Assembly: GCA_017627255.1 (NCBI GenBank)
Contig: JAGAHD010000061.1
Coordinates: 1 to 49,361 of the forward strand
From: Bacteroidales bacterium
Lineage (GTDB): Bacteria; Bacteroidota; Bacteroidia; Bacteroidales; UBA932
DNA length: 49,361 nucleotides
Direction of reading: 5' to 3'
Each line of letters starts with the position of its first letter. Within the stretch, counting starts at the first letter, position 1. Below are positions 13,993-30,806 of the stretch, piece by piece. The notes below the pieces were generated by a model. That model did not search any database, had not been told where the DNA came from, and saw only the letters and a list, made by a program, of their open reading frames with translations. Position numbers and translations under genes: made by a program.

Positions 13993-16221
13993 TCAGAACG
14001 ACAACGTCATTTTGAGCATATAATTGCGGGGAGATTGGGGATAAACCCCCACTCCAGTGGCGACAGAGCCGGTTTCTTCGTTGTAAGATTCCCATCTCCA
14101 ACCGGAAGCATAGTACATCAGGTTGAACAGATTGTTCACGTATGCCGCAAGGCGGAGCTGGGCATGGCGGCCGAGCTGGAATCTATGCGAAACGGAAAGA
14201 TTCGCCACATAATATGCCGGGATGGCCATCTCATCCCGCATGGAATTGTCCAGGAACTGCCGTCCGACATATTTCCCGTCCAAAGTCAGAGCCGTCGTTT
14301 TCAAGGAGTTCGTCGCCACGCCCCGCCAGGGTGTTACCTCCATCTGCAGCATTCCGATGACGGAAGGCGACATCAGCATCTGCGTCCGACCGTACGGAAC
14401 GGGATGGGTCCTTCCGGAATAATCATCGATTTCCACATAAGCGGTATAATCGTCGATTTCATTTACGGACAATGTCGTGTTCCCGTCCAGCCGCAACCAC
14501 CGGGCAGGCGCCCAGGCTGCGGATAATTCGACGCCCCGCCTCCAGGCGCGCGGGACGTTCTCCTTGATGGCATAGCCGGAACTGGAAAGCTTGCCGGTTT
14601 CCAGCAGCATGTCGGTATATTCCATCAGGTAGACATTGGCGGAAGCCGAAAAAGAAGAGGCGCTGAACCCGTAGCCTGCTTCGACATCCACCATGGATTC
14701 CGGACGGATCGGAATATTCTCCCCCTTGATGTTTTCCTTGATGTCGCTCCGGCCAGGCTCCCTGTTTCCGAGTGCGACAGAGGCAAATATCTTATGCCTT
14801 CCCAGCCGGGCGGTCAAGCCGGCGCGGGGATTGAAGAAATCCCAGTTCTTGTGATAGTCCATCTCAATGGAACTCACTTTGTCATCCCGCCCCGTCAGGT
14901 CATAACCGATATGGCGATACTGGAGGTCCACATACGCTGTAAGCCATTCCAGGGGACGGTATTCGGACCGCACGAACGCAGACAGGTCATCTTTCCTTCC
15001 CTGGTTGCGATACCAGGCGCTTTTTGCATTCAACGACGCATAGTCATACGTTTCCCCAAGTCCCTTGGCCCAAAGCATTTCTCCCCAGTGGCCGCCGTCA
15101 TAACGGGACAGATACACTCCTCCCGTCACATCCAGCCGGTCAGAACGGAACCGCAGGTCGGAATTGAAAACCCAGAGATCGTTCCCCATTTTCTTGCGAT
15201 AGATCATGTCACTCTTTTTCGCACCGTCCCATTCAGAGAACGGGAATCCGAATTCCGCATATTTCCGCCCGGTTTTGTAATACTCGTCATAGCCGTCACC
15301 CCGTGAATAATCCAGGGTATTCGACCAGGACAGCCGGTCCGTCAAAGCGCGGGTGTAGTTCAGCTGGACATGATGCTGGGTATAGTTGTCAGTCTGGTTG
15401 TCATAATAGCAGGTGCGGCCGCTGTCATCCGTGTATTCTCCGGCTTCGTTGTAACGGCGGTCGAGGGCATATTGCTCCAGGGAGATGCCATCCCAAGTGA
15501 TGCCGCTACGCTGGTCACCAACCAGGTAAGTCAGCCGGAGTGAATTACGCCCCCGCAGCCAGCCCAGGGTCACAAAGCCTGACTGTGACTGGACAAAGGC
15601 ATTCCGGATATATCCGTCCGTCGTACCTTTCGCGTAGGCAGCAGTCGCATAAAAGCCCTTGTCTGTCAAGCCCGTAGAAGCCGAAAGGGTGGTAATGAGC
15701 GTTCCATACGAACCGGCACCCACCTCCAGGGTCGCGAACGGGTCGGGCGTAACGAAGCCAGTATTCATGTTGATGCTGGCGCCGAAGGCTCCTGCCCCGT
15801 TAGCCGAGGTTCCCAGTCCCCGCTGGACCTGGACGTGGGAGATCAGGCTCGTAAGGGCGGGGATATTCACCCAGAACACTTCCTGCGACTCGGCGTCATT
15901 GAGGGTGATGCCGTTCAGGGTAACGTTGATCTGGGATCCTTTCGAACCGCGGATGGTCATGGCAGAGTTGCCGAGTCCCGTACCGCCTTCATTGTACGTA
16001 ACGACGGAAGGCAGCAGGTTCAGGGTCATGGGAAGGGAATTCATGGGATTGGAAGAGCGAAGCTGGTCCTTGCCCATCGTGGAATAGGTTACGGGGGTGT
16101 TCTCACCGGCCCGCGTGGACGAAACGACAATGCTGTCCAGCCGTTCAGTCCATTCTTCGGTCTGTGCTCCTGCACAGACACACAGCACAGAAAGTGCCGC
16201 AGTCAATACGGTTTTTTTCAT
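13993..16221 (-). CDS. TonB-dependent outer membrane receptor, TPP-riboswitch controlled (probable thiamine uptake)
   Basis: A 742-residue outer membrane receptor that imports a substrate using TonB energy. A signal peptide (MKKTVLTAALSVLCVCAGAQ) is followed by a short TonB-box-like region (LDSIVVSSTRAGE) and the plug domain (NPMNSLPMTLNLLPSVVTYN, AMTIRGSKGSQINVTLNGI, VQVQRGLGTSANGAGAFG). A 22-strand-type barrel ends in the aromatic terminus MLKMTLSF. The ATG at 16221 is chosen over one at 16272 because it starts the signal peptide, has a clear GGAGG 6-7 bases upstream, and lies just after the TPP riboswitch. By that regulation the likely cargo is thiamine, as for other riboswitch-linked Bacteroidota receptors; the cargo is inferred. 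Confidence 0.93.
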   Translation of the reverse strand: MKKTVLTAALSVLCVCAGAQTEEWTERLDSIVVSSTRAGENTPVTYSTMGKDQLRSSNPMNSLPMTLNLLPSVVTYNEGGTGLGNSAMTIRGSKGSQINVTLNGITLNDAESQEVFWVNIPALTSLISHVQVQRGLGTSANGAGAFGASINMNTGFVTPDPFATLEVGAGSYGTLITTLSASTGLTDKGFYATAAYAKGTTDGYIRNAFVQSQSGFVTLGWLRGRNSLRLTYLVGDQRSGITWDGISLEQYALDRRYNEAGEYTDDSGRTCYYDNQTDNYTQHHVQLNYTRALTDRLSWSNTLDYSRGDGYDEYYKTGRKYAEFGFPFSEWDGAKKSDMIYRKKMGNDLWVFNSDLRFRSDRLDVTGGVYLSRYDGGHWGEMLWAKGLGETYDYASLNAKSAWYRNQGRKDDLSAFVRSEYRPLEWLTAYVDLQYRHIGYDLTGRDDKVSSIEMDYHKNWDFFNPRAGLTARLGRHKIFASVALGNREPGRSDIKENIKGENIPIRPESMVDVEAGYGFSASSFSASANVYLMEYTDMLLETGKLSSSGYAIKENVPRAWRRGVELSAAWAPARWLRLDGNTTLSVNEIDDYTAYVEIDDYSGRTHPVPYGRTQMLMSPSVIGMLQMEVTPWRGVATNSLKTTALTLDGKYVGRQFLDNSMRDEMAIPAYYVANLSVSHRFQLGRHAQLRLAAYVNNLFNLMYYASGWRWESYNEETGSVATGVGVYPQSPRNYMLKMTLSF

Positions 16222-16223
16222 TT

Positions 16224-16300
16224 TTTCCTCCGGCGGTATGAGCCGCATCAGGTTCAATGGGTATAATCTCAACCGGGCACAGGGCCCGATACCCCAAAAT
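16224..16300 (-). promoter_or_regulatory. TPP riboswitch (THI element)
   Basis: Read on the minus strand, the conserved core is complete and in order: GGGGTATC, a short P3 hairpin (CGGGCCCTGTGCCCG), TTGAGAT, ACCC, GAACCTGAT, TCATACCGCCG and AGGAAAA. The last part overlaps the GGAGG ribosome-binding site of the TonB receptor, so ligand binding should hide it and block translation. It begins 8-10 bases after the stop of the cyclase gene upstream, so the RNA may be read through from that gene or start from a promoter inside it. Confidence 0.93.
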
Positions 16301-16308
16301 ATGGATGG

Positions 16309-17486: not shown

Positions 17487-17525
17487 CGAATCCCGCGGCT
17501 GAGTCCGCGGGATTCTTCGTTTCAG
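17481..17525. terminator. Shared hairpin ending rnpB and the ilv-leu operon
   Basis: CTGAAACGAATCCCGCGG (17481-17498) pairs with its near-perfect complement ending at 17525, with a three-base bulge and a short loop. The GC-rich inner stem and the T-rich right arm fit an intrinsic terminator for rnpB. The right arm contains the stop codon of ilvE, so the same hairpin sits at the end of the opposing operon. Confidence 0.8.
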
Positions 17526-18562
17526 ACATCCAGGTAATGGCACCAGCCGTGGGTGTCTTCCAGTTCACCGAACTGGATCCCGGTAATCCGCGCATACAGT
17601 TTCTTCGACACCGGACCGACCTCACCGTCCGGGCAGAAGCGGAATTCACGGGCGACCTCCGGCGCTTCCAGGACCGGTTTGATGTCGATGTGCGAAATCG
17701 GAGTGATCACGACGGCCGTACCGCAGCCTCCGACTTCCTCGAACGAATCCAGTTCTTCCAGCCGAATCGGGCGCTTCTCCACTTCCATGCCGAAATCGGC
17801 CGCCACTTCCTGGAGGGTTTTGTTCGTAATGGAAGGAAGGACGCTGTCCGACAGCGGGGTGATGTACTTGTTCCCCTTGATGCCGAAGAAATTGGAGGAC
17901 CCGAATTCGTCGATGTATTCCCGGGTGGAGGAGTTCAGGTACAGGAGTTCGGCATATCCCTGTTCATGGGCGAATTTGTAGGGCTTGAACGTCGCCGCGT
18001 AATTGGCGCCGATCTTGTAACTGCCCGAACCCTTCGGAGCCGCCCGGTCATAATTGCCGGGAATCACGGCGGCGCAGGACTTGAGATGTGCGCCATAATA
18101 GGAACCGGCCGGTGCGCAGATGACGGCAAAGATCGCCTCGGGATACGGCACCAGCTGCATCTGGGGATGCATGCCCACGAGCAGCGGGCGGAGATACAGC
18201 GAAGCCTGGTGCCCGTAGGGCGGCAGGAACTCCGCGTTGCCCTTGACGCAGCGCTCGCACATATCGATGAACATTTCCTTGTCAGGACATGGCATACCGA
18301 GGTATTCGGCCGTACGCGCCATGCGGGCGGCATTTTCTTCCGGCCGGAAAATGGCGGCGCGGCCGTCTTTCTGACGAAAGGCCTTCAGTCCTTCGAAGCA
18401 GGAAATCGCATAGTGGAACACCTGTGCGAAGGGGTCGAAAGTAAAGGAGAAAGTCTCTGTCTCTTCCACGGGAGACCACTGGCCGTCCTTGAAATGGGAT
18501 AGGACGACCGTTCGGGTCCGATAGGCATCGAAGCCCAGTGAATTCCAGTCTATCTGTTTCAT
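17522..18562 (-). CDS. ilvE: Branched-chain amino acid aminotransferase
   Basis: A 346-residue fold-type IV PLP aminotransferase that transfers the amino group from glutamate to the keto acids of Leu, Ile and Val, the final step of the pathway encoded upstream. QVFHYAISCFEGLKAFR is the start-side family signature, and Lys in GSGSYKIGANYAA is the PLP lysine. STREYIDEFGSSNFFGIK and VGGCGTAVVITPI are the phosphate and substrate-loop segments. Last gene of the ten-gene ilv-leu operon, 6 bases after leuB. Confidence 0.96.
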   Translation of the reverse strand: MKQIDWNSLGFDAYRTRTVVLSHFKDGQWSPVEETETFSFTFDPFAQVFHYAISCFEGLKAFRQKDGRAAIFRPEENAARMARTAEYLGMPCPDKEMFIDMCERCVKGNAEFLPPYGHQASLYLRPLLVGMHPQMQLVPYPEAIFAVICAPAGSYYGAHLKSCAAVIPGNYDRAAPKGSGSYKIGANYAATFKPYKFAHEQGYAELLYLNSSTREYIDEFGSSNFFGIKGNKYITPLSDSVLPSITNKTLQEVAADFGMEVEKRPIRLEELDSFEEVGGCGTAVVITPISHIDIKPVLEAPEVAREFRFCPDGEVGPVSKKLYARITGIQFGELEDTHGWCHYLDV

Positions 18563-18568
18563 ATCGCG

Positions 18569-19618
18569 TTAAATGTTAGATGCAATCCAGTCGCCAACTT
18601 CCGAAGTAGTGCAGGTCCCTCCAAGGTCTTCCGTTACGATGCCGGCCTCCAGGGAGGCGGCTACGGCCCTCCGGATGGCTTTTCCCTCCTCCATCAGGCC
18701 GAAGGCATACTCGAACATCATGGCGGCGGACAAGATCGCTGCCACAGGGTTGGCGATGTTCTTGCCGGCCGCCTGGGGATAGGAGCCGTGGATGGGTTCG
18801 AAAAGGGAGGTATGCTCGCCGACAGAAGCGGATGCCAGCAGGCCCATCGATCCCGAAATGCAGCTGGTTTCATCGGTAAGGATGTCACCGAACGTGTTTT
18901 CCGTCACCAGAACATCGAAGAATTTCGGGCAACGGATCAACTGCATGGCCGCATTGTCCACGAACATGTAATCGACCGTCACGTCAGGATAACGGGGTTC
19001 CATTTCCCGGGCAACCTGGCGCCACAAACGGGAGGATTCCAACACGTTGGCCTTGTCTACGACGGTCAGGTGCCGGCGCCGGCGAAGCGCATATTCGAAA
19101 GCCAGTTCCAGGATGCGTTCCACTTCGGCACGACTGTAAATGCAGGTGTCGTAGGCGGTATTTCCGCCGTCTTTCCTGCCTTTCTCCCCGAAATACATGC
19201 CGCCGGTCAGTTCCCGGATGCAGAGGAAATCGGCGCCGTCCACCAGTTCGGTCTTGAGGGGCGACTTGTCCACCAAGGATTTGAAAGTCTCTACGGGGCG
19301 GAGGTTCGCATAGAGTCCGAGCTGCTTGCGGATGGCCAGGAGTCCCTGTTCCGGACGCACTTTCGAAGTCGGGTCATTGTCATATTTGGGATCCCCTACC
19401 GCACCGAAGAGGACCGCGTCGCTTTCCATGCAGAGCGCATGGGTCTCGGCAGGATAGGCATCGCCGAAACGGTCGATGGCGCAGGCGCCGACATAACCGA
19501 ACACGTACTCGGCCTCATGTCCGAAACGGGTGCAGACGGCATTGACGGCCTTGACGGCCTGTTCGACGACCTCAGGTCCGATGCCGTCACCGGGGAGTTT
19601 TGCAATTTTCAGTTTCAT
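18569..19618 (-). CDS. leuB: 3-isopropylmalate dehydrogenase
   Basis: A 349-residue NAD-dependent beta-decarboxylating dehydrogenase that converts 3-isopropylmalate to 2-oxoisocaproate (and 3-methylmalate if a citramalate route operates). The start [19 protein letters not shown] is typical. [14 protein letters not shown] is the substrate loop, [14 protein letters not shown] carries the active-site Lys-Asn, and [19 protein letters not shown] is the cofactor and metal region. Its start overlaps the stop of the synthase gene upstream (ATGA). Confidence 0.96.
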
Positions 19619-21138
19619 ATCAGATTGTTTTCGATAAGGTTCAGCATTTTGACCGTTGCCTTGATGGCCGCTTCCGTCTGGTCGGAATCGATTCCCCTGG
19701 TCTTGAAATCACGGCCGTCGAAATCCCAGGAAATGGATGTCTCCACAAGGGCGTCAGTCTTGCCGCCGGGCGGAATCTTGACCAGGTAGTCCGTCAGTTT
19801 GGGATGACGGCGCCCAAGCCGGTCATAGATTTTCCACAACGCCTTCATGAAGGCATCATATTGTCCGTCTCCGGCTGAGGATTCCTCATATTCGGTTCCG
19901 TCGATGTCAATCCGGAGATTCGCCAGAGGGCGCATGCTCCGGGTCAGCTGGAGGCTGTAATTCACGATATGGATCCGGTCTGGGACGGCGGAGAAATCCC
20001 CTTTCAGGACGTCGGCGATGATGAAGGGAAGATCTTCAGGAGATAGACTCTCCTTCTTGTCCCCGAGTTCCACCACACGGGCGGTCACCACCCGCATCTG
20101 TTCCGGAGTCAGGTTGATGCCCAGGGACTCCAGGTTCTTGACGATATTCGCCTTGCCGCTCGTTTTGCCGAGGGCATAATGGCGATGGCGGCCGAACCGC
20201 TCCGGAAGCAGCGCGTTCTGGTACAGTCCGCCTTTCTTGTCCCCGTCGGCATGGACCCCGCTCGTCTGGGTGAAGACGAATTCGCCCACCAGAGGCTGGT
20301 TGGCCGGAATCCGTACACCGGAAATCGTTTCCACATACCGGCATACATGCATCAACTTGCCTTCGTCCAACGTATTCGCGACCTTCAGATGATCATTCAA
20401 GATTCCGAGGGCGCTGGAAACCGGAAGATTCCCGGTCCGTTCTCCAAGCCCGTTGACCGTAGTATGAATGCCTTGTACCCCCGACTTGACGGCCTCGAAT
20501 GTATTGGCCGCCGCAAGGTCATAGTCATTATGCGCGTGGAAGTCGAAGCGGATGCCGGGATACCGCTCCACCATCGTCCGGCAATACAGGGCTGTCCGGT
20601 CCGGATCCAGGATACCGAGCGTATCCGGCAGCATGATCCGCCGGACGGGAGCGTCCTTGAGCGCATCCACCAGGAAGAAGACATAGTCGGGGGAATCCGT
20701 CATGCCCCCCGACCAGTCCTCCAGGTATACGTTCACCTCGAGGCCGCGGGAAACAGCCTTTGAGATGTCCCTCAGGATATCGTCAAGGTGCTCCCGGGGT
20801 GTTTTCCGGAGCTGCCCCTCGACGTGACGGAGAGACCCTTTCGTCAGCAGGTTCATCACCCTTCCCCCTGCCGAGGAAATCCAGTCGATCGACAGGCCGC
20901 CATCCACGAATCCAAGCGCTTCCACCGCATCAAGATGACCACAGGTCGCCGCCCAGGAACAGATCTTGGAAAACGCTTCCTGTTCCCCGGAGGAAACCCT
21001 GGCCGAACCCACCTCGATCCGGTTGACTTTCAGTTCCTCCAGAAGCAGGCGGGCAATGGCGAGTTTCTCGTCCGCATTGAACGAGACACCTGCCGTCTGC
21101 TCCCCGTCCCGGAGCGTTGTATCCATGATTTCGATCAT
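19615..21138 (-). CDS. Second isopropylmalate synthase-family enzyme, probable citramalate synthase
   Basis: A 507-residue acetyl-CoA-dependent synthase of the DRE-TIM family with the metal motif [30 protein letters not shown] and [10 protein letters not shown]. The C-terminal LeuA dimer/regulatory domain starts near residue 385. It is clearly different from the LeuA gene in the same operon: the region after the first motif reads [18 protein letters not shown] instead of [15 protein letters not shown] second copy beside leuBCD fits (R)-citramalate synthase, which would make isoleucine from pyruvate and acetyl-CoA using LeuBCD and so bypass threonine deaminase. A second isopropylmalate or a homocitrate-type synthase cannot be excluded. 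No ilvA is in the window. Confidence 0.82.
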
Positions 21139-21725
21139 CGCTTTTCCCAGGCTTCAATCTTGTCTTTCTGCAACAGGAGGAAATCAATGTCGTCCAAGGC
21201 ATTCATCAGGCAATACTTCTTGTACGCATTGAGTTCAAAAGATTCGCTGTGTCCTGTAGCCAGATTGGTTACGGTCTGCGCCGGCACATCCACCCGCACC
21301 CGGGCTGAAGGATCCGCAGAAACCGTTTCAAACAGTTCCGCCAGGAATCCCTCTGACACAACCACGGGAAGGACGAAATTGTTGAGTTCATTATTCTTGT
21401 GGATATCCGCGAAGAAACTGGAAATCACCACCTTGAACCCGTATCCGGCAATGGCCCAAGCCGCATGTTCCCGGCTGGAACCGGACCCGAAATTCTTTCC
21501 GGCAATGAGTATCTCCCCGCCATAACGCGGATCGTTCAGGACAAATCCCGGAACGGGAGTCCCGTCCGGCCGGTAGCGCCAGTCACGGAAAAGGTTTTCT
21601 CCGAAAAAACGCTCATCGCGGGTCGTAGCTTTCAGGAAACGGGCCGGAATGATCTGGTCCGTATCCACATTCTCGAGCGGCAGCGGCACGCAAGTGCTTT
21701 CTATGATGTTGAATTTCTGTTTCAT
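21135..21725 (-). CDS. leuD: 3-isopropylmalate dehydratase small subunit
   Basis: A 196-residue small subunit of isopropylmalate isomerase, which pairs with LeuC to move the hydroxyl group between 2- and 3-isopropylmalate. The start [20 protein letters not shown] and the loop [17 protein letters not shown] are diagnostic. Its ATG overlaps the leuC stop, and its own stop overlaps the start of the next synthase, so translation is coupled on both sides. Confidence 0.97.
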
Positions 21726-23116
21726 AACAACTCCCTTGGATCAGTGATGACACCTGTGACGGCTGCCGCAGCCGCCGTCAGCGGGCTGGCGAGCAGCGTG
21801 CGGGCACCCGGTCCCTGGCGCCCTTCGAAATTACGGTTGCTGGTCGAGACGCTGTACTTTCCGGCCGGTATCTTGTCGTCATTCATGGCCAGGCAGGCCG
21901 AACAGCCCGGCTGGCGGACGGCAAATCCCGCCTCTCCCAAAATCTTGTCCAGCCCCTCTTCCTGGATCTGGCGGCGCACTTCCCAGGAACCGGGGACGAG
22001 CCACGCCGTAATGCCGGGCGCTTTCTTCCGGCCTTTTACGAGGGAGGCGAAAGCCCGGAAATCCTCGATGCGACCATTCGTACAGGCCCCGAGGAAAACA
22101 TAATCCACTGGTTTTCCGAGCAGGACCTCGCCCGGCTGGAAGCCCATGTAAGACAGGGACTTGAGGAAAGACGTCCTCCCCTCCTCCGGAATCGATTCCA
22201 CCTCCGGGATCCGCCCGTTGACAGGGATTCCCATGCCGGGATTGGTCCCGTAGGTCACCATGGGGCTGATATCGGACGCGTCATATACCACCTCACGGTC
22301 AAAGACTGCGTCATCGCCGCTCCGGAGCGTCTTCCACCGGGCCACAGCCTGTTCCCACTGTTCTCCCTTCGGCGCGTGTTCCCGGCCTTTGAGATAAGCG
22401 AAGGTCGTCTCATCCGGGGCGATGAAGCCGCCTCTTGCTCCCATCTCTATGGAAAGGTTGCACAGTGTCAGCCGTCCTTCCATGGAAAGGTTCCTGACGG
22501 CCTCACCGGCATACTCGACAAAATACCCCGTTGCGCCGCTGGTGGTCAGCTGTTTCATGATGTACAGCGCCATGTCTTTTGCCGTAACGCCCTCTCCCAA
22601 AGTTCCTTCCACTCTGATTCGCATGGATTTGGGCTTGGGCTGCAGAATGCACTGAGACGCCATGACCATTTCCACTTCACTCGTACCGATGCCGAAGGCG
22701 ACAGCCCCCATCGCACCGTGCGTGGAGGTATGCGAATCCCCGCAGACGATCGTCATTCCCGGCAGGGAAAGTCCACGTTCCGGGCCCACGACATGGATAA
22801 TGCCGTTCCGCGGGTCCATCATGCCGTAGTGCGTCAGTCCGAACTCGGCGACATTGGCTGCCAGGGTATCCACCTGCTTTTTGGACACCGGGTCCTCAAT
22901 CGGCTTGTCCTGGTCATGGGTCGGCGTATTGTGGTCCGGCATACAGATGATCTTCTCCGGGCGGAGGCAGCGGATGCCGCGGGCGCGCAGTCCGTCAAAC
23001 GCCTGGGGACTCGTCACTTCATGGCAGTACAGGCGGTCGATATACAACTGGTCCAGTCCTCCTTCGACATGCTGTACGACATGGGCGTCCCAGGTTTTGT
23101 CAAATAATGTGTTCAT
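21722..23116 (-). CDS. leuC: 3-isopropylmalate dehydratase large subunit
   Basis: A 464-residue aconitase-family Fe-S subunit. It starts [38 protein letters not shown] is the substrate region, and the [4Fe-4S] ligands are the Cys in [10 protein letters not shown] and the two in RQPGCSAC. Length is normal. It sits 8 bases downstream of leuA and overlaps leuD. Confidence 0.97.
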
Positions 23117-23124
23117 CCGTTCTT

Positions 23125-24615
23125 TCAGATTTTGTTGATACAGTCCACATAGGCTTCGATGGATGCCGTAACGATGTCCGTGCTGGCGCCGAAACCATAG
23201 TAGACATGGCCTTCGTTTTCTACCTGCATGTGAACTTTGCAGCAGTCATCGGATCCTTTCGTAACGCCCTGGATCGTGAATTCGTTGATGGTTACCTGGC
23301 GCTTCACAATCTGGCGGAGTGCATTGATGGCCGCATCGACCGGGCCGTTTCCCGTCGCCGCCGCCTCGAATTTCTCCCCGGCGATGTCCAACCCGATGGA
23401 AGCCACCGGCTTCATGCCGATGCCGCTCGTCGCCTGCAGCCAGTCCACTTTGATCCGCCGGTCATGGGCGCGGTCCGCCCCTGCCAGCATCAGAATATCG
23501 TCGTCATGGATTTCCTTCTTTTTGTCGGCCAGCAGGAGGAATGCCCGGTACACCTCATCCAGTTTCTCGTCCGGCAGCCTCACTCCGTTCACTTCCAGGC
23601 GGTATTTCAGGGCCGCCCGGCCGCTCCGGGCCGTGAGCACGATCGAGTTGGTATCGACACCCACGTCCTTGGGATCGATAATCTCATAGGTGCCGGCATT
23701 CTTGAGGACGCCGTCCTGGTGGATGCCGGAAGAATGGGCGAACGCATTCTTGCCGACAATGGCCTTATTGGGCTGGACAGGCATGTTCATGAGCGTCGAC
23801 ACCAGCCGGCTGACCGGGTAGATGCGCTGGGTATTGATATTGGTCTCCAGCGGAATCCCCCTGTGGGCCTTCAGGATCATGGCGACTTCCTCCAGAGCCG
23901 TATTTCCGGCCCGTTCGCCGATGCCGTTGATGGTCACTTCGCATTGACGGGCACCGGCCAGGAGGCCGGCCATGGTATTGGCCGTCGCCATGCCGAGATC
24001 ATTGTGGCAATGGGTGGAGATGACGGCTTTGTGGATGCCGTCCACATGCTCGACCAGGTACTTGATCTTGGCGCCGAATTCCTCCGGCAGGCAGTAGCCG
24101 GTCGTGTCAGGGATGTTGATCACCGTTGCGCCGGCCTTGATCACAGCCTCGACGACACGGGCAAGGTACTCGTTATCGGTCCGTCCTGCATCTTCCGCAT
24201 AGAATTCCACATCCTCGACATACTGCTTGGCATATTTCACCGCACGCACAGCCCTCTCCAGGATCTCCTCCCGGTTGGAATTGAACTTGTAGCGGATATG
24301 CTCGTCAGACGTACCGATACCCGTATGGATCCGTCCCCGCTTGGCATGCTTGAGCGCCTCCGCAGCCATGTCGATATCCTTCGGCACGGCCCGGGACAGG
24401 GCGCAGATCACCGGCCAGGTCACCGCCTTGGAAATCTCGACGACCGAGTTGAAATCCCCGGGACTCGAGATCGGGAAGCCGGCCTCGATCACATCTACGC
24501 CGAGCTGTTCCAGCGCCTTGGCCACCTGGATTTTCTCCACGGTGTTGAGCTGGCATCCCGGGACCTGTTCCCCGTCACGGAGTGTCGTATCGAATATGTA
24601 GACGCGATCGCTCAT
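23125..24615 (-). CDS. leuA: 2-isopropylmalate synthase
   Basis: A 496-residue first committed enzyme of leucine synthesis, condensing acetyl-CoA with 2-oxoisovalerate. [20 protein letters not shown] is the metal and catalytic signature. [35 protein letters not shown] and [16 protein letters not shown] follow in the barrel. The C-terminal LeuA dimer domain (from about residue 380, with [17 protein letters not shown]) gives leucine feedback inhibition in this family. Its start overlaps the ilvC stop. Confidence 0.97.
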
Positions 24616-25661
24616 CGGTCAATCTCCTCGGGACGGAGTTTACGTACAACGGCTCCTGTGCGCCAGAGTTCGCTTTCGCGAAGCGCCTTCAGTTCCTCTT
24701 CCAGGCCCTTACGGTAATCCGGTTTGGAGTTGGCGTCGATGGAAACCTGCGCTTCCTCGCCGCTCGCTACCCGGGCATAGAGTTTTTCGAAGACCGGTTT
24801 CGTCGCATCGTGGAAAGGTCCCATCCAGTCGAGAGCCCCGCGCTGGGCTGTCGTCGAGCAGTTGGCATACATCCAGTCCATGCCTTTCTCCGCAAAAAGC
24901 GGCATCAGGGACTGAGTGAGTTCCTCGACCGTTTCATTGAATGCTTCGGACGGCGAGTGGCCGTGCTCGCGAAGGACCTCATACTGAGCCGACAAAATAC
25001 CCTGGATGGCCCCCATCAGGGTTCCGCGCTCTCCGGTCAGGTCCGAATACACCTCCCGTTTGAAATCAGTCTCGAACAGGTAGCCCGAGCCGACACCGAT
25101 ACCCAGGGCAAGCGTACGCTCCAAGGCATGCCCCGTCGCGTCCTGATAGACGGCATAAGAGGAATTCACGCCACGGCCCTGCAGGAAAAGACGACGGAGG
25201 GAAGTTCCCGAACCTTTGGGCGCCACCATGATCACGTCCACGTCCTTCGGCGGAACGATTCCGGTCCGGTCATTGTAGGTGATGCCGAACCCATGGGAGA
25301 AATACAGGGCTTTTCCGGTGGTCAGGTGCTTCTTGACGACCGGCCACACGGCGATCTGCGCGGCGTCGGACACCAGATACTGGATGATGGTACCCTTTTC
25401 GCAGGCCTCTTCGATCCCGAACAGGTCGACGCCCGGCACCCAGCCGTCCGCGACGGCCTTGTCATAAGTCTTTCCGGGCCGCTGGCCGACGATGACACGG
25501 AAACCGTTGTCCTTGAGATTCAGTGCCTGTCCGGGTCCCTGGACGCCGTAACCGATGACGGCGATGGTTTCTCCGGCGAGGACTTCGCGGGCTTTTTCGA
25601 GCGTGAATTCTTCTCTGGTGACGACATTCTCGTCGACGCCTCCAAAATTGATCTTTGCCAT
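24612..25661 (-). CDS. ilvC: Ketol-acid reductoisomerase
   Basis: A 349-residue NADPH-dependent enzyme that rearranges and reduces acetolactate or acetohydroxybutyrate. The nucleotide site is [20 protein letters not shown], with [13 protein letters not shown] as the cofactor-specificity loop. [18 protein letters not shown] and the metal-binding region [16 protein letters not shown] follow. KESEL-like C-terminal text ([16 protein letters not shown]) completes it. Overlaps leuA and lies 6 bases after ilvN. Confidence 0.97.
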
Positions 25662-25667
25662 AATGAA

Positions 25668-26225
25668 TTATTGAATGTTAAGTTGTTTCCTTTCCCTTTC
25701 CCGTTTCCGCAGGAACTTGAAGACAGGTTCCTGTGTCGCCCGGGATACGGCGATACGGCCGGAGCGGACGAACTGAAGGACCCCGAACGGTTTCAGTTCG
25801 TCATGCAACTGGGCGGTTTCCTCGGAGGATCCGGTCTTCTGGATGACCGTGAAGGTCTTGTTCATTTCCACGATACGGGCATGGAAGCGGTCCAGGACAT
25901 TCTCGATGTCCCCGCACTCAAGCAGGCTTTCCGTCGACACCTTGTACAGAGCGAGCTCCCTGTAGACAATCTTGTCGGAAGTGTAGAAAAAAACCTTGAT
26001 GACGTCCACGCGCTTCTCGATCTGCTGGACACTCTCCTTTACTTTCTTTTCCGTTCCGCTGGTAACGATAGTGATATTGTGGACCCCCTCCAGCGAGGTG
26101 GCGCCGGCCGAAAGGCTCCAGATACTCAGGTTGTGACGGGTGAATACGTTCGTAATTTGGGCAAGGAGGCCGATCTGGTTCTCGGTGTAGATGGTCACCG
26201 TGTATTCCTTGATTTCGTTTTCCAT
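25668..26225 (-). CDS. ilvN: Acetolactate synthase small (regulatory) subunit
   Basis: A 185-residue regulatory subunit. The N-terminal ACT domain (EYTVTIYTENQIGLLAQITN, LSIWSLSAGATSLEGVHNIT) binds valine for feedback inhibition in this family. A second ACT-like part with VDVIKVFFYTSDKIVYREL and a basic tail follow. The ATG at 26225 lies 1 base after the ilvB stop and is preferred; an upstream start at 26264 would overlap the ilvB coding end and add residues foreign to the family. Confidence 0.95.
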   Translation of the reverse strand: MENEIKEYTVTIYTENQIGLLAQITNVFTRHNLSIWSLSAGATSLEGVHNITIVTSGTEKKVKESVQQIEKRVDVIKVFFYTSDKIVYRELALYKVSTESLLECGDIENVLDRFHARIVEMNKTFTVIQKTGSSEETAQLHDELKPFGVLQFVRSGRIAVSRATQEPVFKFLRKRERERKQLNIQ

Positions 26226-26226
26226 A

Positions 26227-27927
26227 TCAACTATACCATTCGGTTTCAGTGAGCATGATTTCATGGATTCCCTTTCCCGGTGGAATCATCGGCATGACGT
26301 TTCCGGTTTCCAGGACGTGGACGTTCAGCAGGCAGGGTTCATCATCCGCGAACAGGTCGCGCAGGGCAGGTTCCAGTTCTTCGCGTCGCTCAACGGTCTG
26401 GCAGCGGATACCATATGCCCGGGCGATGAGGGCATAGTCCGGATTCAGCATCCGGGTCTGGGAGTAGCGTTCCCCGAAAAACAGCTGTTGCCACTGCCGG
26501 ACATTACCGAGCCAGTTGTTGTTCAGCAGGACGATTTTCACGCCGATGCGTTCCTGCATGATCGTACCGAACTCCTGCAAGGTCATCTGGATGCCACCGT
26601 CTCCGACAAACAGGCAGACTGGTCGCCGGGGATCAGCAATCTTGGCCCCGATCGCGGCAGGAAGGCCGAATCCCATCGTCCCGAGGCCTCCGGACGAAAT
26701 AAAGCTCCGGGCGGCGCAGAAACGGGAATAACGGGCGGCCATCATCTGGTTCTGGCCCACATCCGTCACGATGACCGCCTTGCATTTCGTAACCCGGGAT
26801 ACGCCATCAATGACCTCTCCCATGCGGATGAGACCGTTGCCGGGACGGATCTCAGGGTCGATAACCATCGCTTTTTCCCTCGCCAGGCACGGGGCGAACC
26901 CGGCCACCCACTCGGGATGATGCCTTTCCTGCATCCGGCTGGTCAATTCCGTCAGGACCTTCCGGGCATCCCCACGGATGCCGACGGTGACGGGAATAAT
27001 CTTTCCGATTTCCGACGTGTCGATGTCGATGTGGATTACCTTGGCTTGGCGGGCATACGTAGAAACCGTTCCGGTTACACGGTCATCGAAGCGCATGCCG
27101 ACAGCAATGAGGACATCACACTGGTTGGTCATGATGTTCGGAGCCACGTTCCCATGCATGCCGATCATTCCCTGGTAGAGCGGGAAATCCGAAGGAAGGG
27201 CACTCAGGCCAAGCAGAGTGGAACCTGCGGGGATATCCCCTTTTTCCAAGAAGGCCTGCAGGGCAGTCTCCGCATGGCTCAGGGTAACACCCTGTCCGAA
27301 TACGACAAAAGGCCGTTCGGCATGATCCAGCAAGTCGACAGCCTGCCTGAGCGCCACCTCCGAAGGCTTGGGCTCAGGAATATAGCTCCGGATGAAATCG
27401 CATTTTTCAAAATGGAAATCCGTCATGCCGACCTGGGCATCCTTGGTGAAATCCAGCACCACGGGACCGGGGCGTCCCGTATTGGCGATATAGAAAGCGC
27501 GGGCAACGGCCCAGGCGACATCCTCAGCCCGGCGGATCTGGTAATTCCACTTGCTGATCGGAGCCGTCAGGCCGATGATGTCCGCCTCCTGGAACGCGTC
27601 CGTTCCCAAGGCCGCCGCAGGAACCTGTCCCGTGATGACGACGACCGGCGTGGAGTCTGTCATGGCATCGGCGATGCCGGTTATAACATTCGTCGCACCG
27701 GGGCCCGAGGTGACGATGACGACACCGGGGACGCCCTTGATCCGGGCATACCCCTGCGCGGCATGGATCGCGCCCTGTTCGTGGCGGACGAGAATGTGGC
27801 GGATCGAGTCCGTGAAATCGCAGAGACTGTCATAAACGGGCATGATCTGCCCGCCGGGATATCCGAAGACGGTGTCCACACCGGATTCGACCAGGGATCG
27901 CCACAATGCTTCTGAACCAGTAATCAT
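26227..27927 (-). CDS. ilvB: Acetolactate synthase large (catalytic) subunit
   Basis: A 566-residue thiamine-diphosphate enzyme that condenses pyruvate with pyruvate or 2-oxobutyrate. The catalytic glutamate is in HEQGAIHAAQGYAR, after VFGYPGGQIMPVYD. The FAD-binding middle domain holds MIGMHGNVAPNIM and VGMRFDDRVTG. The thiamine-diphosphate/Mg site is VGDGGIQMTLQEFGTIMQE with LLNNNWLGNVRQWQ. Because the enzyme needs thiamine diphosphate, it links functionally, though not physically, to the TPP-controlled receptor in this window. Second gene of the operon, 32 bases after ilvD. Confidence 0.97.
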   Translation of the reverse strand: MITGSEALWRSLVESGVDTVFGYPGGQIMPVYDSLCDFTDSIRHILVRHEQGAIHAAQGYARIKGVPGVVIVTSGPGATNVITGIADAMTDSTPVVVITGQVPAAALGTDAFQEADIIGLTAPISKWNYQIRRAEDVAWAVARAFYIANTGRPGPVVLDFTKDAQVGMTDFHFEKCDFIRSYIPEPKPSEVALRQAVDLLDHAERPFVVFGQGVTLSHAETALQAFLEKGDIPAGSTLLGLSALPSDFPLYQGMIGMHGNVAPNIMTNQCDVLIAVGMRFDDRVTGTVSTYARQAKVIHIDIDTSEIGKIIPVTVGIRGDARKVLTELTSRMQERHHPEWVAGFAPCLAREKAMVIDPEIRPGNGLIRMGEVIDGVSRVTKCKAVIVTDVGQNQMMAARYSRFCAARSFISSGGLGTMGFGLPAAIGAKIADPRRPVCLFVGDGGIQMTLQEFGTIMQERIGVKIVLLNNNWLGNVRQWQQLFFGERYSQTRMLNPDYALIARAYGIRCQTVERREELEPALRDLFADDEPCLLNVHVLETGNVMPMIPPGKGIHEIMLTETEWYS

Positions 27928-27959: not shown

Positions 27960-29792
27960 TCAATCGATGACCCGGACCGCACCTTGATCGGCCGAGCTCA
28001 CCATCCGGGCGTAGGCAAGCAGGCTTTTTGAAACATCCCGGTGACGATGGGGAGGCGTGAACGCCAGGGTGCCGCGTGCCACCTCTGCCTCGCGCCGGAG
28101 CGCAAGTTCTTCCGCTGGGACGAGGAGCCGGATGGAACGGGAAGGAATGTCGATTTCAATGGTATCCCCGTCGCGGACCAGCGCAATGTTTCCGCCGGCG
28201 GCAGCCTCCGGAGAGACATGGCCGATACTCAGTCCGGAAGTTCCTCCGCTGAAACGTCCGTCCGTCAGGAGGGCACACGCCTTGCCGAGATGCATCGACT
28301 TGAGGTAAGAAGTCGGATACAGCATTTCCTGCATGCCGGGACCGCCTTTCGGCCCCTCATGCGTGATGACGACGACGTCTCCGCTGCGGACCGTCCCGTC
28401 CAGGATCCCTTCACAGGCGGCCTCCTGGGAATCGAACACGCGCGCAGGACCGGAAAACTTCCAGATGGAGGGATCCACCCCCGCCGTCTTGACGACACAT
28501 CCGTCCGGAGCGAGATTGCCTTTCAGCACCGCCAGTCCACCGTCCCGGGTGTAGGCATGTTCCAAATCCCGGATACAGCCTTCTGAACGGTCTGTATCCA
28601 ACTGGTCATAATAGGTTTCCTGGGAGCCCATCCGCGTGCTGAAGCGGTTGGCCGGGGCACTGCGGAAAAGCGTCAAGGCCTCTTCCGACACGTTCGGGGA
28701 CAGGATGGAATAGCGGTCGATTTCTTCCTTGAGAGTCATTCCGTCCACCCGGTAGAGAGAGGTATCGACCAATCCCCCTTCCGCGAGTTCCCGCATGATG
28801 GAAACCACACCGCCGGCGCGGTTCACATCCTGGACATGGAAGCGGGCGGTATTCGGCGCCACTTTGCAGATGCACGGGACCTTGCGGGACAGCGCGTCGA
28901 TATCCGCCATCGTGAAATCGGCACCGGCCTCCCGGGCGACAGCCAGCAGATGGAGGACCGTATTGGTCGAACCGCCCATGGCGATATCCAGTGCCATGGC
29001 GTTGAGGAATGCGGGGCGGGAAGCGATGCTGCGGGGCAGGACCCGTTCATCTCCTTCTTCATAATAGCGGAGGGCATTCCCGACGATAAGGGCAGCCGCC
29101 TTCCGGAAGAGTTCCGTACGGTTCCTGTGGGTCGCCAGGACGGTTCCGTTTCCCGGCAGGGCAAGACCGATGGCTTCGGTCAGGCAATTCATCGAATTGG
29201 CCGTGAACATACCGGAACAACAACCGCATCCGGGACACGAACGGGCTTCGATTTCAGCCACTTCCCCGTCAGAAAGGGAGGGATCGGCTGACTTGACCAT
29301 CGCATCGATCAGGTCCAGGCGATCCTTGCCCATGACGCCGGCTTCCATCGGTCCGCCCGATACGAAGACGGTCGGGATGTTCAGCCGCATGGCAGCAATC
29401 AGCATGCCCGGCGTAACCTTGTCGCAATTGCTGATGCAGACCATCGCATCGGCCTTGTGGGCATTGACCATATACTCGACGCTGTCCGCGATGATTTCGC
29501 GGGACGGAAGGGAGTACAGCATGCCGTCATGCCCCATTGCAATACCGTCATCCACGGCGATCGTATTGAATTCAGCGGCATAGCAGCCCAGTTTTTCGAT
29601 TTCAGCCTTGACCAGCTGGCCGGCCTCATGAAGATGGGTATGTCCAGGAACAAACTGCGTGAAGGAGTTGACGACAGCGATGACCGGCCGGCCGACCTGC
29701 TCCGGCTTCATGCCGGCAGCCGTCCACAAAGCCCGGGCTCCGGCCATCCTGCGACCTTCGAACGTGATGCTGCTTCTCAAAGAGTGTTTCAT
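27960..29792 (-). CDS. ilvD: Dihydroxy-acid dehydratase
   Basis: A 610-residue Fe-S dehydratase that converts dihydroxyisovalerate or dihydroxymethylvalerate to the keto acids. Cluster Cys residues are in [13 protein letters not shown] and [14 protein letters not shown]. Other signatures are [37 protein letters not shown] and [16 protein letters not shown]. It is the first structural gene of the operon. Its ATG lies 11 bases after the T run of the attenuator, so it is expressed only when transcription passes that terminator. Confidence 0.97.
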
Positions 29793-29802
29793 ATATCTTT
29801 AA

Positions 29803-29840
29803 TAAAAAAATCTCCTTTTCAGTGCGGCCTGAAAAGGAGT
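29803..29840 (-). terminator. Attenuator terminator of the ilv-leu operon
   Basis: On the minus strand an 11-base-pair perfect stem (CTCCTTTTCAG at 29839-29829 with its complement at 29822-29812) and a six-base loop are followed by A and seven T residues (29811-29804), just before the ilvD ATG. A segment TTGAAAGG at 29872-29865 can pair, with a one-base bulge, with the terminator's left arm and so could form the antiterminator. CTCCTT inside the leader peptide codons (29898-29893) can weakly pair with that segment. This is the 1:2, 2:3, 3:4 layout of classical attenuators; the alternative pairings are my reading and not computed. Confidence 0.85.
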
Positions 29841-29880
29841 CGGTTCATATTCTGTTCCGTCATGCCTTTCAAGTCCGCGC

Positions 29881-29934
29881 CTACAGGGAGACAAGGAGAA
29901 TAATGGAAAGGATGAGGGCGAGTACGCTGTTCAT
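29881..29934 (-). CDS. ilv-leu operon leader peptide
   Basis: A 17-residue frame, MNSVLALILSIILLVSL, ending in TAG. It contains six Leu, three Ile and two Val, so 11 of 17 residues are the amino acids made by the operon. It starts about 20 bases after the predicted transcription start, and its stop is 41 bases before the terminator stem, the right position for ribosome stalling to steer RNA folding. Too short to be found by standard gene callers. Composition, position, and the terminator make a leader peptide very likely. Confidence 0.85.
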   Translation of the reverse strand: MNSVLALILSIILLVSL

Positions 29935-29959
29935 TACACTTACAAACTGTAACCGGGTA

Positions 29960-29990
29960 CAAAGTAAGTGATTTAGTTTTTAAAAAACAA
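29960..29990 (-). promoter_or_regulatory. Promoter of the ilv-leu leader
   Basis: The minus strand has TTG (29990-29988), 20 bases of spacer, then TTACTTTG (29967-29960), one mismatch from TAnnTTTG. It predicts an RNA start near 29953. Confidence 0.5.
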
Positions 29991-30012: not shown

Positions 30013-30774
30013 TCAATCAGCATCCAAGAGAGCAGGGAACTTTGTACGGAACGCCTTCAGGTCTTCGTGCGAAATATCGAATGTTGCGTAATCCACCTTG
30101 TTTTCCTTACAATTTGTAAGCATTTCTCCGCGCGGACCGTACAAAGTGGAATGTCCGGGATACCGGTTGTCCGGATCCTCTCCTACCCGGTTGACTCCTG
30201 CAACGAAGCACAAATTCTCGATGGCCCGGGCCTTCAGCAGGGCGTCCCAGGCAGCAATCCGGGGTTCCGGCCACGAAGCCACGTACAGGATAAGGTCATA
30301 CTCCGCCCCGTTTTCCGTCATCCGGTTCCGGCTGAAGACCGGGAAGCGAAGGTCGTAACAGACCTGGAGCAGGATCCGGAAACCGCCGTATTCCACGACC
30401 GTGCGTTCCCCGCCGGCCGTATAGCGAAGATGTTCACCGCCGAATGAAAACAGGTGATGCTTGTCATAATGCCGTTCCCTCCCGTCGGGCCATACGAAAT
30501 AGAACCGGTTCCGGTAACTCTCCCCCTCCCGGACGGACAGGCTGCCGGCCACGGCGCAGGAACGCTCCCGGGAGAGGCGTTTCATCAGGTGGAGGCTCTC
30601 GCTGTCATCACTTTCAGCCACGCCTTCCGGTCGGGTGACAAATCCTGTCGAGAACATTTCAGGAAGCACAATCAAATCTGTCGGGGGAACGGACAAGAGG
30701 ATCCTTTCCACCTCCCGGCGGTTGGCTGCGGGATCCGCCCAGACCGGATCCGTCTGTAACATGGTAATTTTCAT
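30013..30774 (-). CDS. Nitrilase-superfamily amidohydrolase (omega-amidase-like)
   Basis: A 253-residue cytoplasmic C-N hydrolase. The Glu-Lys-Cys triad is visible in LIVLPEMFSTGF, RHYDKHHLFSFGGE and ILLQVCYDLRFP. The arrangement FSTGF and LFSFGGEHLRYTAG resembles YafV/Nit2 omega-amidases, which deaminate 2-oxoglutaramate or 2-oxosuccinamate formed by transaminases. A repair role toward deaminated glutathione is also possible in this family. The ATG at 30774 is chosen; the longer frame starts at a TTG within the promoter. Single gene upstream of the ilv-leu leader on the same strand. Confidence 0.9.
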   Translation of the reverse strand: MKITMLQTDPVWADPAANRREVERILLSVPPTDLIVLPEMFSTGFVTRPEGVAESDDSESLHLMKRLSRERSCAVAGSLSVREGESYRNRFYFVWPDGRERHYDKHHLFSFGGEHLRYTAGGERTVVEYGGFRILLQVCYDLRFPVFSRNRMTENGAEYDLILYVASWPEPRIAAWDALLKARAIENLCFVAGVNRVGEDPDNRYPGHSTLYGPRGEMLTNCKENKVDYATFDISHEDLKAFRTKFPALLDAD

Positions 30775-30798
30775 GGCATCACGATTCTTCTGTCCTGA

Positions 30799-30806
30799 CA
30801 AAAATA
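30799..30806 (-). promoter_or_regulatory. -7 promoter element of the amidohydrolase gene
   Basis: The minus strand reads TATTTTTG, matching TAnnTTTG, 24 bases before the ATG. Confidence 0.55.

Follow-up and report, generated by a model that had tools for sequence, protein, structure and literature searches.

Sequence and covariation evidence for a probable leader-peptide attenuator of the ilv-leu operon in Bacteroidales

Introduction

A contig of a Bacteroidales bacterium (JAGAHD010000061.1; all 49,361 nt were analyzed and are hereafter called the window) carries a ten-gene ilv-leu operon preceded by a very short reading frame rich in leucine, isoleucine and valine codons and by a hairpin with a T tail. 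What is the role of this leader? In the ilv and leu attenuators of Escherichia coli, a peptide rich in the regulated amino acids is followed by RNA able to form the stems 1:2, 2:3 and 3:4, and attenuation of this kind requires a ribosome close behind RNA polymerase. A first-pass annotation of the window had proposed a similar arrangement here. The leader is examined below in the window, in related genomes and by stepwise folding.

The ilv-leu operon and its leader

The operon and the parts of its leader, all on the minus strand, are as follows.

27960-29792 (ATG at 29792), minus strand: ilvD, dihydroxy-acid dehydratase, first gene of the operon (NCBIfam NF009103, TIGR00110)
17522-27927, minus strand: ilvB, ilvN, ilvC, leuA, leuC, leuD, a citramalate-synthase-like gene, leuB and ilvE, in this order (NCBIfam)
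29934-29881, minus strand: leader peptide ORF, ATG at 29934, encoding MNSVLALILSIILLVSL, stop TAG at 29883-29881 (direct sequence reading)
29906-29915, minus strand: strand 1, TCATCCTTTC, inside the leader ORF, which could pair with 29870-29860 (predicted fold)
29876-29865, minus strand: strand 2 (s2), putative antiterminator strand GGACTTGAAAGG (covarying pairing with strand 3 in relatives)
29839-29829, minus strand: strand 3 (s3), terminator left arm CTCCTTTTCAG (direct reading, terminator scan)
29828-29823, minus strand: hairpin loop GCCGCA (direct reading)
29822-29812, minus strand: strand 4 (s4), terminator right arm CTGAAAAGGAG (direct reading, terminator scan)
29810-29804, minus strand: seven T, after one A at 29811; expected termination site (direct reading, terminator scan)

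The ten genes follow one another closely, overlapping or separated by no more than 32 nt, and all match ilv/leu-pathway families of NCBIfam, which bears out the ten-gene operon of the first-pass annotation. The best match of the eighth gene is CimA (NF042433), at 618.7 bits and below the cut-off of 950. Beyond the operon, an RNase P class A RNA gene (RF00010; 17149-17485, plus strand) converges on the end of ilvE. Further on, a TPP riboswitch (RF00059, 65 bits; 16207-16306, minus strand) overlaps the listed start of the ORF at 13993-16272, which has a TonB-dependent receptor plug domain; the true start of this ORF is probably further in than listed.

Direct reading confirmed the order that had been described upstream of ilvD, namely a Leu/Ile/Val leader peptide, s2, the hairpin, the T run and ilvD. 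Eleven of the 17 residues of MNSVLALILSIILLVSL are L, I or V, and the putative leader ORF is in this respect what is expected of ribosome-mediated attenuators, a short ORF rich in codons for the products of its operon. An ATG sORF with 8 of 10 BCAA residues turned up in 11 of 3000 sequences obtained by dinucleotide shuffling of the upstream 303 nt. The hairpin (29839-29812) is a perfect 11-bp stem with a 6-nt loop, as annotated, with one A between the stem and the seven T. It is the single site returned by the terminator scan, where shuffles yield 0.6, so that the hit alone is weak evidence. By its sequence the hairpin is a predicted intrinsic terminator between leader and first gene, as an attenuator requires; it ends only 19 nt before the ilvD ATG, and 88 nt separate the leader stop from the ilvD start. 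The leader RNA, whose folding had been proposed as a check, folds into a structure whose stability none of 200 shuffles matches (z -3.5).

Conservation of leader and hairpin within the genus

A comparison of ilvD leaders in related genomes had also been proposed, and an attenuator would be doubtful if relatives kept the hairpin without a BCAA-rich frame. A sample of 300 genomes of the genus held ilvD in 101 of them, at 103 places; 102 upstream regions of at least 250 nt were kept, and one (L144), whose contig ends 130 nt upstream, was dropped. A BCAA-dense sORF was defined by an ATG start, a length of 10-45 residues and at least seven of ten consecutive residues being L, I or V. Such an sORF is present in 65 of the 102 regions, compared with 2.5 expected from dinucleotide shuffles and four on the reverse strand, and the remaining 37 regions are without one.

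T-tailed hairpins, of -9 kcal/mol or better and directly before a T run, were found in 65/65 leader-bearing regions, 10/37 leaderless regions and 16/65 shuffled leader regions. This rule was written after a stricter one (56/65 leader-bearing, 10/37 leaderless), since the nine misses of the latter showed hairpins by eye. Peptide and terminator therefore travel together, and the leaderless hairpin rate resembles that of shuffled sequence (10/37 vs 16/65), so a hairpin kept without the BCAA-rich frame is not the pattern in this genus. Four of the ten leaderless regions with hairpins (L136, L152, L162, L175) have strong ones and may be among a few exceptions.

The leaderless genes are largely of one kind: 31 of the 37 encode a short IlvD N-terminus (M-x-Y/L-RS; L008, L010, L011, L142, L143, L146-L170 and L173, with L147 counted from an inner Met). 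In two others (L016, L184), ilvD seemingly lies behind leuB inside an operon, as judged by eye. In L008, an ORF with the start MKILKFGGS diverges from ilvD; from this motif we take the ORF to be aspartokinase-like. A small hairpin lies just before the ilvD ATG there.

Codon use differs between the leaders and nine genes of the window operon (CTG 0.14 vs 0.50, ATT 0.64 vs 0.23). The apparent preference of leaders for CTT/CTA and ATT is only suggestive, as the leaders were drawn from many genomes whose base composition is not known.

Where would transcription of the leader begin? Two further features lie upstream.

29967-29960, minus strand: probable Bacteroidota -7 box TTACTTTG, one mismatch to consensus, with TTG about 20 nt further upstream
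30013-30801, minus strand, the same strand as the leader: carbon-nitrogen hydrolase gene, ending 78 nt before the leader ATG

The box was named from TAnnTTTG, which we take to be the Bacteroidota -7 consensus, and would place the transcription start near 29953. A TnnnTTTG motif occurs 8-85 nt upstream of the leader ATG in 47 of the 65 leaders (14.6 expected from mononucleotide shuffles), 42 of the 65 having the TAnnTTTG form and the window the TnnnTTTG form only. A sigma-70 promoter scan found none, as is understandable where a Bacteroidota-type promoter is expected.

Covariation between antiterminator and terminator strands

Compensatory changes in the stems had been named as a further check, and were found for s2:s3. 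An GGACTGGGAAGG-like s2 and an CCTTCTCAGTCC-like s3 were recognized in 43 of the 65 leaders, in 35 distinct combinations; the other 22, with consensus strands unrecognized, were left out, 18 of them belonging, by our reading, to a third leader type. Standard pairs make up 363 of 420 s2:s3 positions, compared with 339.4 (sd 2.7) when partners are swapped, a value reached in 0/10,000 permutations (permutation and swap tests that ignore shared ancestry). Double-sided exchanges are seen at five positions (C-G/T-A/G-C, T-A/C-G, G-C/A-T, A-T/T-A) and are hard to explain without pairing. Energies of the 2:3 duplex agree, at -18.66 kcal/mol with the own partner and -15.50 kcal/mol with swapped partners (0/10,000 reach).

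For the other two stems the margins are smaller or biased. The 1:2 duplex has -14.52 kcal/mol with its own partner and -13.79 kcal/mol with swapped ones (155/10,000 reach; 39 distinct leaders), which lends weak support to a model where strand 1, in the leader ORF, sequesters strand 2. Standard pairs in 3:4 number 197 of 216 vs 183.1 permuted (0/10,000), a figure biased by the choice of each s4 as the best partner and given no weight here.

How far does this hold for the window itself? It had been claimed that s2 could pair with the left arm of the terminator. In the window, TTGAAAGG does so imperfectly, with a mismatch in the 2:3 helix, and the single-sequence test, run against shuffled spacers, gives p = 0.17, short of significance, so this part of the claim stands through covariation in relatives and not through the window alone. 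The same test gave p <= 0.05 in 25 of 52 relatives, four of 56 having been dropped for a called hairpin that did not lie downstream of the leader. Judged from covariation in the relatives, the putative antiterminator strand is a pairing partner of the terminator left arm.

The third leader type (L176-L183, L185-L193, L018) ends like VVVVVVISIIIP, or HVIVIVVSLIVG. In L177, L179 and L181 the antiterminator seemingly pairs CCATTGGTG with the 5' part of the terminator loop, as seen by eye.

A model for attenuation

The reading of the first-pass annotation is supported by the co-occurrence of leader and hairpin (65/65) and by s2:s3 covariation, with the BCAA operon downstream and the His- and Trp-rich sORFs of the genus (below) pointing the same way, and the leader is very probably a ribosome-mediated transcription attenuator sensing charged Leu, Ile and Val tRNA. 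Weighing against it are the imperfect 2:3 helix of the window, the 37 of 102 regions that have no leader and the small margin for 1:2. The sequence itself shows the parts in their order, conserved in relatives, and the 2:3 covariation; we infer where transcription starts, that the leader is translated, that ribosomes stall and transcription terminates, and which amino acids are most important. When charging of Leu, Ile and Val tRNA is low, a ribosome would stall in the 17-codon leader and mask strand 1, strand 2 would be left to pair with strand 3, and polymerase would read into ilvD and the nine further genes. When BCAAs are plentiful, the ribosome would reach the stop codon and mask strand 2, or depart and let 1:2 re-form; with strand 2 unavailable, strand 3 would pair with strand 4 and transcription would stop at the T run.

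Stepwise folds of the window leader are equilibrium folds with an assumed ribosome footprint and start site. In partial transcripts with no ribosome, 1:2 forms first and then the terminator 3:4. With the ribosomal A site at each of eleven tested codons, from 4 to 17, 2:3 forms with 7.8-8.1 expected pairs. These stalled states were folded with polymerase at the end of strand 3 and not to full length, so the choice between 2:3 and 3:4 would rest on kinetics. At the stop codon the outcome depends on the footprint. The RNA from 29868 to 29804, left when the ribosome covers a little over 13 nt past the stop, forms the terminator only. A footprint of exactly 13 nt leaves GAAAGG barely accessible, with 6.7 pairs of 2:3 still formed; for transcription to terminate when BCAAs are plentiful, the ribosome would then have to be released or to cover more RNA. 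Release followed by 1:2 re-formation may restore termination in the window. Where s2 already starts within the leader ORF, as it does in 27 of 52 relatives, a ribosome at the stop codon would mask it.

Alternative explanations

Could the leader act instead on translation or RNA decay, for example through ribosome reinitiation or Rho? Reinitiation has been proposed for leaders very near their gene, with such a distance peak reported in Bacteroidetes too (PMC4833913). The 88 nt between leader stop and ilvD start are far beyond that peak of 10-14 nt, and the T-tailed hairpin is present in all 65 leader-bearing regions, which leaves a mechanism other than intrinsic termination distinctly improbable.

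A second reading takes the hairpin merely as the end of the upstream transcript, the peptide as chance and the ilvD promoter as lying further downstream. The carbon-nitrogen hydrolase gene is indeed on the same strand and ends 78 nt before the leader ATG, and 11/3000 shuffles hold an equally dense ATG sORF, but this reading accounts neither for co-occurrence in 65/65 regions nor for s2:s3 covariation in relatives, and 19 nt between hairpin and ilvD ATG are insufficient room for a usual promoter; we consider it highly unlikely. A chance peptide beside an unrelated terminator is rejected on the same co-occurrence and covariation.

A leader whose peptide is incidental, the RNA being a T-box, a PyrG-like element or a ligand-binding riboswitch, is just as implausible, since the sub-threshold Rfam matches (PyrG leader, 23.1 bits, gathering 65, E 0.68, 29799-29878; PreQ1 near the leader, 14.7 bits, gathering 39, E 1.8, other strand) are set against relatives that share peptide composition and short alternative stems rather than a fixed aptamer. 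In the Rfam scan of the window's ilv leader no family reached its gathering score, T-box and riboswitches included, and a known riboswitch or T-box was rejected on this ground. Up to E 1, Rfam scans of eight ilv loci gave only two sub-threshold microRNA models, in L031 and outside the leader.

Distribution across Bacteroidota

How widely does the attenuator arrangement extend? A scan of named genomes gave at least 595 matches, of which the best 80 were taken; 20 with non-Bacteroidota titles were set aside and 60 examined, 58 of them long enough (L049 and L054 were too short). These 58 loci are Bacteroidota by title except for two Desulfobulbaceae-type titles, both without a leader. Among the matches listed, the closest named relatives of the window's IlvD point to Bacteroidales as its origin. 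Among them, and thus among the best 80 of at least 595 matches, 30 have a BCAA-dense ATG sORF. Under the strict rule, 18 of the 30 leader-bearing loci have a hairpin, as do 9 of the other 28; in most of the remaining 12 leader-bearing loci, though not in L057, an imperfect hairpin is visible by eye. Leader-bearing loci include Bacteroides graminisolvens DSM 19988 (L029), Phocaeicola faecalis (L035), Heminiphilus faecis (L060), Labilibaculum sp. K2S (L084), Odoribacter laneus (L090) and Alistipes MAGs (L068, L088), and two of nine examined loci with Prevotella or Prevotellaceae titles (L033, L036).

A sample of the phylum had ilvD matches in 78 of 238 genomes, and the 29 best-scoring places besides the window were examined. 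A clear leader arrangement was found only in L194, from the same order; none was clear in the other 28 of these best-scoring loci, which lie outside the order. BCAA-dense sORFs occur in six further loci (L209, L215, L216, L217, L219, L222). Most non-Bacteroidales loci of this sample carry a different IlvD subtype. As only L194 is clear and the other subtype prevails elsewhere, the attenuator claim is kept to Bacteroidales. Several of the distant Bacteroidota loci L198-L203 and L208 have, by eye, a short GGGTTGACC-AAACCC-like repeat, which stands shortly upstream of the different IlvD subtype.

Relation to known attenuators

The window leader shares with the E. coli ilv and leu attenuators a BCAA-rich peptide, predicted alternative stems and a predicted terminator before the first gene. 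It differs in its probable Bacteroidota-type promoter, in having one peptide for three amino acids and in serving a single ten-gene operon; the likeness drawn here is one of arrangement. Attenuation had been presented as out of place in Bacteroidota, which is too strong, as peptide leaders in this phylum are indicated by Rfam RF01692 and by PMC9723704. RF01692 (Bacteroid-trp, the Bacteroidete tryptophan peptide leader RNA) follows, by its name, the same principle in the same phylum, with Trp codons and trp genes in place of those of the ilv leader, and matches neither the window nor the eight ilv loci scanned; Bacteroid-trp is listed among candidate RNAs in PMC2864571. For Flavobacterium psychrophilum, of the same phylum, one study reports strong clues of leader-peptide attenuation before amino-acid operons, inferred from structured 5' regions; "ilv" is absent from the main text (PMC9723704). 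The ilvBNC attenuator of Corynebacterium is likewise hairpin-based and in a BCAA operon, but belongs to Actinobacteria and to a different operon (PMC11857589). In Bacteroides thetaiotaomicron, sORFs in 5' UTRs are reported to be reminiscent of leader peptides (PMC7366714). Among the papers listed in searches of an open-access library, none dealt with an ilv leader in Bacteroidales; the 2010 survey by Lopatovskaya and colleagues, cited in PMC4833913, may contain one.

The novelty is limited, since the Trp peptide leader and the flavobacterial clues are already known in the phylum, and the window most likely holds a classical attenuator of the ordinary kind, in a phylum from which few have been described. 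It would add a conserved small regulatory peptide and a switch serving the BCAA operon in many Bacteroidales, with relevance to BCAA synthesis by gut members of the order. Rfam covers the trp leader of the phylum and has no family at threshold for the ilv leaders scanned. Because the ribosome must trail RNA polymerase closely, the conserved leader offers a direct way to probe, by simple reporters, how transcription and translation are coupled in Bacteroidota.

Candidate histidine and tryptophan leaders in the same genus

Are other amino-acid operons of the genus preceded by similar leaders? The His and Trp loci considered are L243, L223-L242 and L245-L254. A His-rich sORF (at least three His in eight residues) lies before hisG in 16 of 20 loci examined, out of 29 places and with no shuffle control. 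The window's own genome (L243) has an sORF with HHHHHH, then a T-tailed hairpin, before hisG. Ten trpB places were examined, one of them a partial match and the other nine above the family cut-off; a Trp-rich sORF precedes trpB in eight of the ten, seven with WWW (no shuffle control). It seems rather likely that leader-peptide attenuation is a main control of amino-acid synthesis in Bacteroidales, spanning BCAA, His and Trp operons; if true, ribosomes would follow RNA polymerase closely in this order. Among eight trpB loci scanned, one (L245) matches RF01692, with 49.2 bits vs a gathering score of 49.
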